Source: Gammaproteobacteria bacterium (lineage in GTDB: Bacteria > Pseudomonadota > Gammaproteobacteria > JAADHQ01). Taken from it: 42,380 bases of DNA. Position numbers and translations under genes: made by a program. Of the stretch, positions 20,384-42,380 are shown in pieces. Position 1 is the first letter of the stretch, and each line of letters opens with the position of its first letter. The notes beneath the pieces are model-generated. The model was not told where the DNA came from. It ran no database searches and worked only from the letters and a program-made list of their open reading frames with translations. The DNA lies in the NCBI GenBank assembly GCA_011052215.1, contig DRJK01000073.1, forward strand, positions 1 through 42,380. The letters run 5' to 3'.

Positions 20384-20398
20384 ACCCAGATCTTTCAT

Positions 20399-20631
20399 CA
20401 CTGTTGCCCCGTTAACTTTATGAAGCACATATCAATGTGAGGACATGGAATCGGTAAGCCTGATCAAGGCCGTCTGCCGCACGGGCGCGGCAGCCGAGCC
20501 GCCATGGATGGCATGTTTTGCGTGTCTTGATCAGGCTTGCCGGTTTCATGTCCGGTTTCCCAATTTAGCCCAAAATGCACTTGCCGTTTACATTTCAACT
20601 ACATTTGTCATGGGTTAACGGGGCAACAGTG
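20399..20631 (-). mobile_element. MITE-like hairpin element, copy 3 (complete, inverted)
   Basis: This 233-bp member is in opposite orientation to copies 1 and 2. Terminal inverted repeats CACTGTTGCCCCGTTAAC (20399-20416) and GTTAACGGGGCAACAGTG (20614-20631) match perfectly. The flanking 9-bp direct repeat ATCTTTCAT (20390-20398 and 20632-20640) is also perfect, the clearest evidence that this is a transposed unit with 9-bp target duplication. The hairpin arms contain GCCTGATCAAG and CTTGATCAGGC. The right end overlaps the folA coding region and supplies its last codons. There is no ORF of its own. Confidence 0.92.
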
Positions 20632-21123
20632 ATCTTTCATTCTTTCATATATCATAAATGTACATGCATATGCATTTTTTTCATCTACCGTACTTTCCGA
20701 ACACTGCACTTCCTTCCAGCCACCCATGTCAAACCGCGGAAACCAGACATCGCCCTCGAACTGACCATGCACCTGCGTGATATACAGCCTGTCCACTGTT
20801 GGTAACATCTGCTGATAAAATGATGCTCCACCAATGATCATGATTTCTTCTGCATCACCTGCAACTGCCAGGGCTTCGTCGATAGAATGCACGACATCAA
20901 CACCTTCGGCCTGATAAGCCCGGTCATGCGTAATGACAATATTCTGTCGATCTGGCAAGGCTCTGGCACCGAATGATTCGAAGGTTTTACGTCCCATCAC
21001 AATTGGTTTACCCATGGTATTCTGGCGAAACCATTTCATATCGGCAGGCAGCTTCCATGGCAGGCTATTGTTTATACCAATGACACGGTTTTCATCCATG
21101 GCCCATATGAGGGAGATGATCAA
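20608..21123 (-). CDS. folA: Dihydrofolate reductase FolA (C-terminus recoded by a mobile element)
   Basis: FolA reduces dihydrofolate to tetrahydrofolate with NADPH, serving the neighbouring thyA, which produces dihydrofolate. Conserved features are ISLIWAMDENRVIG, the LPWKLPADMKWFR loop, GRKTFESFG, and IMIIGGASFYQQML. The start is a TTG at 21123 with GGAG 8 nt upstream, both inside a perfect 13-bp inverted repeat. Residues HCCPVNP and the stop codon at the very end are encoded by the terminal repeat of the inserted element. The catalytic domain ends before this (ERMK at about residue 163), so activity is probably kept. Total length is 171 aa, against 159 in E. coli. Confidence 0.94.
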   Translation of the reverse strand: MIISLIWAMDENRVIGINNSLPWKLPADMKWFRQNTMGKPIVMGRKTFESFGARALPDRQNIVITHDRAYQAEGVDVVHSIDEALAVAGDAEEIMIIGGASFYQQMLPTVDRLYITQVHGQFEGDVWFPRFDMGGWKEVQCSESTVDEKNAYACTFMIYERMKDHCCPVNP

Positions 21124-32443: not shown

Positions 32444-32602
32444 CTCTGTCCCGTAACCTGAGAGATTGAGTGCCAGGTTGATTAAGCCTGCCTCTGCCCC
32501 GTCGGTGGATCACTATGGTGATCACTCTCCAGAGTCAACATGATTCCTGCGGTCCTTTTGCCTGAGCGTTTCCGAGCGGTGTGTTGCGCCTTCGGCTCCC
32601 GT
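32439..32602 (-). ncRNA. Tandem glycine riboswitch
   Basis: The minus-strand leader of gcvT carries two glycine aptamers in series. The first reads GGGAGCCGAAGGCGCAA, then CTCAGGCAAAAGGACCG, then the ACTCTGGAGAG junction. The second reads CACCGACGGGGCAGAGG, then CTCTCAGGTTACGGGACAGA. These are the hallmark GAAGG-GCAA and CTCAGG-CAAAAGGAC blocks of the class. A strong terminator follows at once. A TTGACT (complement of 32633-32638) and TACAAT (complement of 32606-32611) lie upstream, but their 21-bp spacing makes the promoter uncertain. No gene is present in 32381-32739 other than this leader. Confidence 0.92.
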
Positions 32603-32739
32603 ATCATTGTAATCTGTGTCTGTCCCCGGAACAGTCAACAGATCGACAGGGTATCTCCCGCAGGATCTTTAGTTGAGGAGGCAAATATACCTGTACAGGG
32701 AACTAAATCCAAGTGGGTCTGTAAGCCGTTGATAATATG

Positions 32740-40190: not shown

Positions 40191-40194
40191 TGAC

Positions 40195-40375
40195 GTTCCT
40201 GCGGTGTTTGTTAGCAGCCGGGTAAAATCTTGAGCCATACTTTACTAGCAGGGTTTAACGTTCTGATACTGTTGTGCAAGTCCGCCCTGTAGCGGAAAGC
40301 CTGATGTATCAACATTATTCCCACCTGAACCTCTGGTTCAAGGGCGAAAGCTGCGACGGCACTTGCGGGAACCAA
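40195..40375 (+). ncRNA. ssrS: 6S RNA
   Basis: 6S RNA folds to mimic an open promoter and sequesters the sigma-70 RNA polymerase holoenzyme in stationary phase. The 236-bp gap between zapA and ygfA carries the diagnostic 3' block: CACCTGAACCTCTGGTTCA, then AGGGCGAAAGCTGCGACGGC. The closing stem is formed by GTTCCTGCGGTGT (from 40195) with CACTTGCGGGAAC near 40373. The length of about 180 nt and the position before ygfA match the known gene. Exact ends are estimates. Confidence 0.92.
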
Positions 40376-40426: not shown

Positions 40427-41026
40427 TTGAGTAAACCATTATCTGAACTCAGAACATCACTAAAAATACAACGCAGTCAACTCGATGCCAGGGCACGTGA
40501 CCGGCATGCCAGCCGGCTGACTAAAATCCTGACCCGGGAAAAGCTCTTCCTGAAAAGCCGGCATGTCGCATTTTATATTCCGGTGAATGGTGAAATCAGT
40601 ACACTGGGAATTATGGATGTGGCCCTGGAAATGGGTAAATCTGTTTACCTGCCTGTACTCATGCCCTTTTTAACCAACCGACTATGGTTTGCACCTTATT
40701 CTCATGACTGCGCAATGGTATTCAACCGGTTTGGCATCCCCGAACCCGTGTATCATGGGCGCCACCTGATGCCTGCCTCAAATCTCGATATCGTACTGAC
40801 TCCGCTCGTTGCCTTTGACCCGGAATGTAACCGGATCGGCATGGGTGGTGGGTATTATGACAGAACCTTTTCTTATCTGCGCCACCGGCAGCACTGGCAA
40901 AAACCAAAACTCATCGGTGTTGCATACGAATTTCAGAAAACCTCCCTTATCAAGACCCATAAATGGGACGTACCCCTGCATTCTGTATTCACAGAAGAAA
41001 ATTTCTATACGCCACGTAATAAGTAG
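40427..41026 (+). CDS. ygfA: 5-formyltetrahydrofolate cyclo-ligase
   Basis: YgfA converts 5-formyl-THF to 5,10-methenyl-THF with ATP, clearing an inhibitory folate that forms during glycine metabolism. The 199-aa product has HVAFYIPVNGEIST (substrate site), VDV-like IVLTPLVAFDPECNRIGMGG and the ATP/phosphate motif GMGGGYYDRTF. The start is TTG 40427; no ATG precedes the conserved helix. It is linked to 6S RNA upstream, as in E. coli, and may be processed from the same transcript. Repeat copy 6 begins 53 bp after the stop. Confidence 0.95.
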   Translation: MSKPLSELRTSLKIQRSQLDARARDRHASRLTKILTREKLFLKSRHVAFYIPVNGEISTLGIMDVALEMGKSVYLPVLMPFLTNRLWFAPYSHDCAMVFNRFGIPEPVYHGRHLMPASNLDIVLTPLVAFDPECNRIGMGGGYYDRTFSYLRHRQHWQKPKLIGVAYEFQKTSLIKTHKWDVPLHSVFTEENFYTPRNK

Positions 41027-41078
41027 GCCAACTGCCCGTTGGCGCCAGATCATAACTATCTTCACGATGGGTTGCGTT

Positions 41079-41313
41079 CACGACTATCCCGTTAACATGT
41101 AACGAATACAGTTGAAATGTAAACGGCAAGTGCGTTTTGGGCTAACCCGCAATCCGGACATGAAACCGGCAAGCCGGATCAAGACACGCAAAAGATGCCA
41201 TCCATGGCGGCCCGGCTGCCGCATCCGTGCGGCAGCCGGTCTTGATCCGGCTTGCCGATTCCATGTCCTCACATTGTTATGTGCTTCATAAAGATAACGG
41301 GACATTAGCAGTG
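41079..41313 (+). mobile_element. MITE-like hairpin element, copy 6 (complete)
   Basis: This 235-bp member has the same orientation as copies 1 and 2. The termini are degenerate (CACGACTATCCCGTTAAC on the left; GATAACGGGACATTAGCAGTG on the right). The flanks GGTTGCGTT (41070-41078) and AGTTGCGTT (41314-41322) agree at 8 of 9 positions, supporting a 9-bp target duplication. Hairpin arms 41156-41185 and 41239-41268 pair at 28 of 30 positions, with a CCGGATC/GATCCGG middle shared with copy 5. It separates ygfA from the AT-rich stretch. Confidence 0.88.
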
Positions 41314-41322
41314 AGTTGCGTT

Positions 41323-42189
41323 AGTAAAAAGCAGGGGTACTTATTCTCATCGACCGTATTCCGATTTTTTAAATTCATTGTGTTATCTTAAAGAATCCCG
41401 AAAAAGATAAACAATATTGCATCTTGCAACAAGAAGATAACAATTCAACCAGAAAGATCCCTTTTTATTTTCCCGGCTCACCATGTCCACAAGATTTTTC
41501 ATCTTGATAGAAACACACGCATTGCAGATAAAAAACAGTGCCAAACTGTACCGGAATAAAAACCAGACCGTAAAAATAAAGCCAACAAGAGAATAAAATT
41601 GATAATTTTCCAAAAATATATATTTTTTTTAATATCCACCGTCATTTTTACTGCTGAAATTTGTTTTTTTAAAAAAAAATGACTACACAACACCATTTTC
41701 TTCTTTTTTGTACTTTCATGATGAAGAAAATAAATATCAAGCTGCAATTTATGCAAAATAGTTTGGAATATTTGGGAAATTCAAAAAAAATAATCATTTT
41801 TTAGTAAAAAAAGTTTATTTCAGACAAAATTTTTAAAATTTTAAAAAAATATCCAAAAAATCATGCATGTTTTTAGGAATTCCAATAAAAAATCAATTTT
41901 TTTACCTTTTTAATAAAAAAATAATGATGTTTAATCAATTTTGTTTTTTAAATAAACTCTCACGGCATCATCTTTTTAGTTAAAGTTTTTATGCAACCTG
42001 ACGAAAAAGGAAACAATCAAGTTTATTTGTTTTAATAATTATTATTATTTTTGTTTGATTTATAAATTTTAAAAAAAATTTCTGTCCTGTAAACTTCGAT
42101 AAAGTCAATTTATTTATTGAATTTACTGGAATTTTCTTTTTACTGGTATATACTCAAACGCGAGCAAATGATACTTACTTATTACTATT
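41323..42189. other. Long AT-rich stretch without a credible gene
   Basis: About 870 bp is strikingly AT-rich compared with the rest of the window and full of A- and T-runs, such as AAATTTTAAAAAAAATTT. The open frames on the minus strand (41383-41613, 41499-41756) have the low-complexity Phe/Lys/Ile composition expected by chance and lack ribosome binding sites. No RNA gene is recognised. It lies directly upstream of the H1-like gene and may be its regulatory region, a curved or nucleoid-protein-binding segment, or foreign DNA. Confidence 0.7.
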
Positions 42190-42195
42190 GGAGGT
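42144..42195 (+). promoter_or_regulatory. Candidate promoter and ribosome binding site of the H1-like gene
   Basis: TGGTATATA (42144-42152) looks like an extended -10 element, with a weak -35-like TGGAAT about 14 bp before the hexamer. GGAGGT at 42190-42195, 7 nt before the ATG, is a very strong ribosome binding site. The promoter call is tentative, the ribosome binding site is clear. Confidence 0.45.
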
Positions 42196-42202
42196 CATTA
42201 AC

Positions 42203-42380
42203 ATGGCAACTAAAAAGAAAACTGCAAAAAGGAAGGCTCCAGCCAAGAAGAGAAAGGCTGTGGCCAAGAAGAAAAAAGCTACAGCCAAGAAGAAAAAGGC
42301 AGTAGCCAAGAAGAAAAAGGCTCCAGCTAAAAAGAAAAAAGCTGCTGCCAAGAAGAAAAAGGCTCCAGCTAAAAAGAAAA
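42203..42380 (+). CDS. Histone H1-like Lys/Ala repeat protein (3' end outside window)
   Basis: The frame from ATG 42203 stays open to the window edge (59 codons). After MATKKKTAKR come seven perfect-length heptads of the form KAxAKKK (x = P, V, T, V, P, A, P; the first ends in R), each 21 nt. This is the composition of bacterial histone H1-like and AlgP-type proteins, whose lysine-rich tails bind DNA non-specifically. A very strong ribosome binding site (GGAGGT) precedes it, suggesting high expression. Family membership by composition is reasonable; whether a folded domain follows cannot be seen. The repetitive DNA makes length changes by slippage likely. Confidence 0.85.
   Translation, partial: MATKKKTAKRKAPAKKRKAVAKKKKATAKKKKAVAKKKKAPAKKKKAAAKKKKAPAKKK

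Follow-up and report, generated by a model that had tools for sequence, protein, structure and literature searches.

A very AT-rich stretch located upstream of a gene for a histone-H1-like protein in a gammaproteobacterial genome is an array of A/T-tracts, 0.5–0.8 kb long, that is predicted to be intrinsically curved. A phased array of this kind recurs in five families without sequence similarity, and the H1-like gene is itself a regular member of the 6S RNA-ygfA-(EVE)-ilvA neighborhood. We have high confidence that the array is phased, curved and recurrent and that it lies upstream of a conserved promoter. That it is a putative docking site for a nucleoid protein, with feedback, is a tentative proposal against which we still lean slightly, and toward the combined statement, a phased curved array together with docking or feedback control of the H1-like gene, we lean by a small degree.

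The AT-rich stretch and its neighborhood

The window analyzed here is a 42,380-nucleotide stretch that comprises the entire contig C73 of a 2.6-Mb genome in 183 contigs. At its right end the order is 6S RNA (ssrS; 40193–40375, forward strand; Rfam RF00013, 97.5 bits), ygfA (FAU1, 5-formyltetrahydrofolate cyclo-ligase; 40427–41026, forward strand, the stop codon ending at 41026; TIGR02727, E 4.1e-44), a dispersed element, the AT-rich gap and the H1-like gene. A sequence-only reading had described about 870 bp of very AT-rich, gene-free DNA before a heptad-repeat gene, and this description holds: the stretch 41322–42202 is 881 bp long with 25.3% GC, and 41501–42200 is the 700-bp window of lowest GC (23.0%, the runner-up having 34.7%) across the 256,575 bases of this genome that were sampled, two N-filled contigs being ignored. 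No gene, tRNA or Rfam family lies within 41322–42202, where only chance-type open reading frames of at most 85 codons occur, and Rfam gives no match in the gap of either the window or 16 related loci. Elsewhere in the window, a glycine riboswitch aptamer lies at 32540–32670 on the reverse strand (RF00504, 58.8 bits). In G000, the genome of the window, and in congener G003, unbroken A/T runs reach 35 bases or more only at G000:C66:9671-9706 and G003:C9:99456-99499; both lie away from the locus, and such a run was rejected as its marker.

The dispersed element (41078–41314, "repeat copy 6" in the earlier reading) is a 237-bp insertion outside the array, flanked by a 7-bp target duplication, GTTGCGT, at 41071–41077 and 41315–41321. 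Members of its family are about 240 bp long, end in inverted repeats (of the TCACTGYTGCCCCGTTAAC type in other copies) and are flanked by target duplications of about 7 bp; this genome holds at least 40 near-full copies, and two further copies lie in the window (about 1382–1629 and 20397–20645). Terminal inverted repeats, target duplication and high copy number mark it as MITE-like. Congeners G001 and G003 have no copies, and G002 has seven weaker matches; this small mobile element landed beside ygfA later, in the window's lineage. The sequence-only reading had seen base composition change sharply here, as if the element marked a border. The step exists and is the right edge of the inserted element, but the element has no border role, because in the element-free congeners G001 and G003 the AT-rich gap follows ygfA directly (1046 bp with 30% GC in G003, 1110 bp with 32% GC in G001). 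Both congeners share the same order of 6S RNA, ygfA, AT-rich gap, H1-like gene and convergent ilvA. Without the element the window's gap measures 932 bp, and those of the relatives G001, G003, G047 and G187 measure 867–1110 bp.

The H1-like gene and its promoter

The H1-like gene begins with an ATG at 42203, preceded by the ribosome binding site GGAGGT (42191–42196, forward strand), and its 5′ part (42203–42380, forward strand) encodes a lysine/alanine heptad protein before running off the contig. The GGAGGT and the seven heptads reported earlier are both present, the first heptad being KAPAKKR and the other six KAxAKKK units. The 3′ end of an H1-like gene lies on contig C150, together with ilvA in convergent orientation; that C73 and C150 hold the two ends of the same gene is an inference, because both contigs break within repeats and their overlap is 92%. 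Full-length orthologues have 147 residues (G003) and 137 residues (G001), consist of lysine-rich repeats from residue 4 onward, and the H1-like protein has no match in Pfam or NCBIfam. H1-like proteins are in general abundant. In congener G002, an adenylate kinase (PF00406, PF05191; L010, 484–1605) runs on in the same frame into an H1-like, lysine-rich tail some 120 residues long.

The 95 bp 5′ of the gene are conserved across loci and contain the core CTRG-N19-TATACT, which in the window reads CTGG-N19-TATACT(C) at 42124–42152 on the forward strand, coordinates that were read from the sequence and are good to a base or two. The promoter alignment comprises 23 of 25 loci, L056 (near-identical to L047) and L111 (no TATACT) having been left out; TATACT is invariant and the spacing constant in all 23 rows, and CTRG is found in 20, with GTAG in the other three. 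Standard sigma-70 consensus sites in the region number 5 versus 4.8 expected, with none at the conserved promoter, and congener G002, whose assembly is 79% complete, has no match to the promoter.

Between ygfA and the array lies a conserved dyad, TTGCATCTTGCAA (41417–41429), which reads as a candidate regulator site. The TTGCANNNTGCAA pattern of this dyad occurs in the gaps of G000, G001, G003 and G187 and, by reading, in that of G047; it is found at five places in the whole genome and in 8 of 59 H1-gene gaps, the scan of which starts at the nearest recognized gene.

Phased A-tracts and predicted curvature

Phasing was measured by marking AAAA, TTTT, AAAT, AATT and ATTT and taking the normalized spectral peak between 9.8 and 11.6 bp, with 3000 dinucleotide shuffles for comparison. 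The array as scored over the whole stretch (41330–42145, about 25% GC) gives a peak of 25.6 at 10.1 bp, a height reached by none of the 3000 shuffles, and the same is true of G003 (37.2 at 10.3 bp), G001 (32.2 at 10.4 bp) and L070 (42.7 at 10.4 bp). The peak of L060, from Thiohalophilus, is 18.8 at 10.4 bp (1 of 3000 shuffles as high), and that of L052 is 14.5 at 10.5 bp (11 of 3000). A cruder measure based on AAA and TTT gives a weaker signal for the window, with 1.75% of shuffles as high. The L050 gap is weakly phased, and by either measure there is no phasing in G047, L067/G187, L059, L073, L092, L058, L086 or L095.

The local profile places the core of the array, predicted intrinsically curved DNA with a period of about 10.1 bp, at about 41500–42000, and the spectral peak, phase bins and a wedge model support it. 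Thirty-three of the 47 tracts in the window fall into four of ten phase bins; in the window, G003 and G001 the local phasing weakens over the 150–200 bp closest to the promoter. In G003, the locus ranks first of 11,547 overlapping 800-bp windows covering 1,203,284 bases (37.3 versus 17.4 for the next) and is also the 800-bp window of lowest GC; a scan of 250,765 bases of G000 likewise puts it first (26.3 versus 16.8). A tandem-repeat origin of the periodicity was rejected, as Tandem Repeats Finder gives only two- to three-copy runs of 7–10 bp within the gap.

Phased A-tracts curve DNA, according to PMC3940949, and an A/T-tract once per helical turn therefore implies intrinsically curved DNA. 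In an AA-wedge model with assumed wedge parameters, none of 100 shuffles is as bent as the window, G003, G001 or L070, and L060 exceeds 99 of its 100; the model gives G047 no excess bending over its shuffles. The earlier suggestion of a curved regulatory region is thus supported, as tract spacing follows the helical repeat in the window and in both informative congeners and modeled bending of these three exceeds that of every shuffle.

Recurrence across families

A sequence-only search profile of promoter and start, built on the 23 rows, matches 59 of 369 genomes of the class; five of the 59 predicted peptides are shorter than 58 residues, owing to contig ends or a misplaced start, and a second G181 match (L282) was left out. 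As ygfA and/or EVE lies no more than 3 kb upstream in 55 of the 59 matched genomes, the H1-like gene counts as a regular member of this neighborhood. In a survey of 80 named ygfA loci, the H1-like gene lies downstream of ygfA in 24, and an EVE-domain gene, recognized by motif, directly follows ygfA in 15; Pfam confirmed EVE in both loci tested, L060 and L070. The named and unnamed sets overlap (L060=G126, L059=G246, L058=G155, L095=G039, L092=G181, L063=G047, L067=G187), so that their counts are not independent.

Of the 59 gaps, the 28 that retain at least 300 bp after trimming were tested, and nine of them are phased (p ≤0.002): G341, G000, G001, G003, G180, G126, G240, G335 and G103, from families f132, f1, f36, f124 and f101. 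One of these genomes is that of a named isolate, Thiohalophilus thiocyanatoxydans DSM 16326 (L060/G126). When periods from 4 to 40 bp are allowed, the best period of all nine is 10.05–10.55 bp. The other 19 gaps are unphased; they include the syntenic G047 and G187, L059/G246, which is a near relative of the phased L052, and G334 (p 0.02), which was counted as unphased. Among gaps of at least 570 bp, 8 of 16 H1-gene gaps are phased, whereas a peak of at least 15 is reached by 0 of 31 control gaps, the controls coming from the window's genus only and the window sets overlapping. Of 141 G003 gaps of at least 300 bp, five have p ≤0.005, the locus included, and only the locus reaches a peak of 15. 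Weaker phased gaps of about 325 bp were seen in G003 before genes that open-reading-frame inspection suggests to be ilvB (acetolactate-synthase-like; L177, 6632–6956) and mraZ (MraZ-like; L169, 6722–7047).

Sequence similarity between the congeners is confined to the last 110–280 bp, one dyad and a 21-bp patch. It is thus as a property that the array is kept or regained. In addition, 10 of 25 ygfA-H1 loci have gaps of just 107–411 bp, and the array is therefore dispensable for the gene as such.

Proposed function

We propose that the curved array, which lies just upstream of the conserved promoter, may serve nucleoid proteins, putatively HU/IHF and/or the H1-like protein, as a site of docking or nucleation. 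Proteins bound there would adjust how strongly the gene of the H1-like protein, presumably an abundant one, is transcribed, and this may amount to negative feedback on the H1-like gene, plausibly in the manner of hns. The docking proposal draws on several observations. Histone H1 carboxy tails select A-tract DNA of scaffold-associated regions (passages of PMC6615755, citing Roque 2004); H-NS binds preferentially to curved, AT-rich DNA and is a repressor at its own promoter, as described in part of PMC7601328; H-NS itself was rejected as the binder, as PF00816 has no match in five of five genomes; and HU/IHF-family genes are present, with four matches each in four of four genomes. The AT-rich stretch is thus probably a control or docking region, putatively for a DNA-packing protein, and the sequence-only reading's candidate, that the H1-like or another nucleoid protein targets it, is plausible. 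The curvature itself is presumably under selection.

Alternative explanations

The alternative that survives best, although we consider it unlikely, is that the gap is the remnant of a lost EVE gene that has drifted toward AT by mutational bias, its AT-richness being without function. EVE stands directly after ygfA at the 15 loci given above, and the ZapAB-SsrS-FAU1-EVE unit is described in part of PMC7641849 as ancestral to beta/gamma-proteobacteria. None of the four genomes of the window's genus (G000–G003) has EVE (PF01878), and in G047, of another family, the gap contains a broken EVE gene (best tblastn 2.1e-23). This pseudogene, at about 8412–8880 of L019, has frame breaks and stops and lies between ygfA and the H1-like gene. 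GC is highest in intact EVE, lower in the G047 pseudogene and lowest in the gap of the window. As EVE adjoins ygfA in relatives and is broken in G047, some of the DNA next to ygfA is probably a relic. Against the whole gap being so explained, no EVE trace is detectable in the gaps of the window, G003, G001 or G187, the window giving chance-level matches; decay does not make a phasing of 10.1–10.5 bp, and the pseudogene-bearing gap of G047 is unphased. Furthermore, the EVE-intact loci L050, L058, L060, L070, L086 and L095 have a separate AT-rich gap of 475–795 bp before the H1-like gene, and the gap is phased in the EVE-intact L060/G126, L070, G180, G240 and G335. Gene decay may therefore account for extra length on the ygfA side only. 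The sequence-only reading had noted that conservation of the stretch as a coding or RNA gene in relatives would refute it, and these results go only part of the way: in relatives the EVE gene does occupy the ygfA side of the gap, but several EVE-intact genomes retain a distinct AT-rich, phased gap in front of the H1-like gene.

Somewhat less likely again is a direct action of curvature on transcription, of the kind seen at other curved upstream regions, by wrapping of DNA round RNA polymerase or by supercoil placement, with no dedicated nucleoid protein. The conserved promoter core downstream of the array is consistent with it, as are the shorter phased gaps before other G003 genes. However, at 500–800 bp the array extends far beyond what contact with the polymerase needs, and its phasing fades before the promoter is reached.

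We give slightly less weight still to the idea that the array is a chromosome-scale landmark, that is, an anchor of the nucleoid or a seed of its condensation comparable to a eukaryotic scaffold-associated region, which does not regulate the H1-like gene. The array is the single strongest site in the sampled chromosome, the A-tract preference of H1 tails (the same passages of PMC6615755) would suit such a role, and the H-NS family is unmatched in the five genomes. However, the array always lies at the same gene and upstream of its promoter, a position that fits local regulation better, and more than half of the genomes do without it.

That the gap holds an unrecognized RNA gene or small protein is very improbable: it is long enough, and an opposite-strand open reading frame of about 40 codons seems, by reading, to be conserved in the initial 350 bp downstream of ygfA in a different lineage (L052, L059, L073), but no Rfam family matches and the congeners align only over the short segments noted above. 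Least credible of all is horizontal acquisition or an element border, which the earlier reading had raised and which the sharp composition step at the inserted element might suggest, since an acquired island should be absent at the same place in relatives whereas the element-free G001 and G003 keep both order and gap, in contradiction to it, and the flanks are the conserved 6S-ygfA and ilvA.

Relation to known systems

The locus can be compared with several known systems. As for Escherichia coli hns, the gene of a nucleoid-type protein has AT-rich, predicted-curved DNA upstream, and autoregulation is a natural hypothesis (compare part of PMC7601328). Unlike hns, the system here is without a PF00816 H-NS, the array is coherent over 0.5–0.8 kb, and the protein is an H1-tail-like lysine/alanine polymer whose binding is putative. 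The combination of long A-tract-rich DNA with an H1-tail-like protein resembles that of scaffold-associated regions and histone H1 as outlined in sections of PMC6615755, but the present case is bacterial and phased at the helical repeat, and both binding and a scaffold are hypothetical here. A more speculative reading, which we regard as rather doubtful, is that of a bacterial counterpart of the scaffold-associated region in Gammaproteobacteria: a single long phased array would act as both high-affinity docking site and feedback sensor for the adjacent H1-tail-like protein, in a cell-cycle and 6S RNA neighborhood, and would be maintained for its physical property, not its sequence.

The order of 6S RNA and ygfA is that of the ZapAB-SsrS-FAU1-EVE neighborhood, for which RpiA and IlvA are also named in part of PMC7641849; unlike that unit, the window's genus has lost EVE, which is present in the relatives L060 and L070. 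The passages of PMC7641849 consulted name no H1-like gene, and the words AlgP, H1-like, lysine-rich and nucleoid lead to none in that paper. The protein also resembles Pseudomonas AlgP (AlgR3) and PhaF, which have lysine/alanine-rich DNA-binding repeat tails similar to histone H1. However, AlgP has a helical N-terminal domain of 124 residues and KPAA repeats (both points from parts of PMC9239181), whereas the protein here is lysine-rich repeat throughout and is encoded at another locus. Finally, genome-wide A-tract periodicity in bacteria, which is likewise phased with the helical repeat and has been linked to curvature and nucleoid proteins (PMC3940949), differs from one concentrated array at one gene, whose score in a congener is over double that of the next-ranking 800-bp window within 1.2 Mb.

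Concluding remarks

Literature searches gave no match for an H1-like gene together with 6S RNA, and for H1-like proteins with curved DNA only a study of an HU-like protein; to the extent of these searches, the locus is not in print. For curved DNA upstream of a nucleoid-protein gene, what is new here is the unusual length and strength of the array and its recurrence without sequence identity. In addition, the H1-like gene is added to the known zap-6S-ygfA-EVE neighborhood, on the evidence of 55 of the 59 profile-matched genomes. The locus bears on the ways in which H1-like proteins of bacteria locate DNA and in which their quantity is controlled. Overall, five families share a DNA shape at one and the same gene but not the underlying sequence, a pattern that points to selection acting on the curvature as such.
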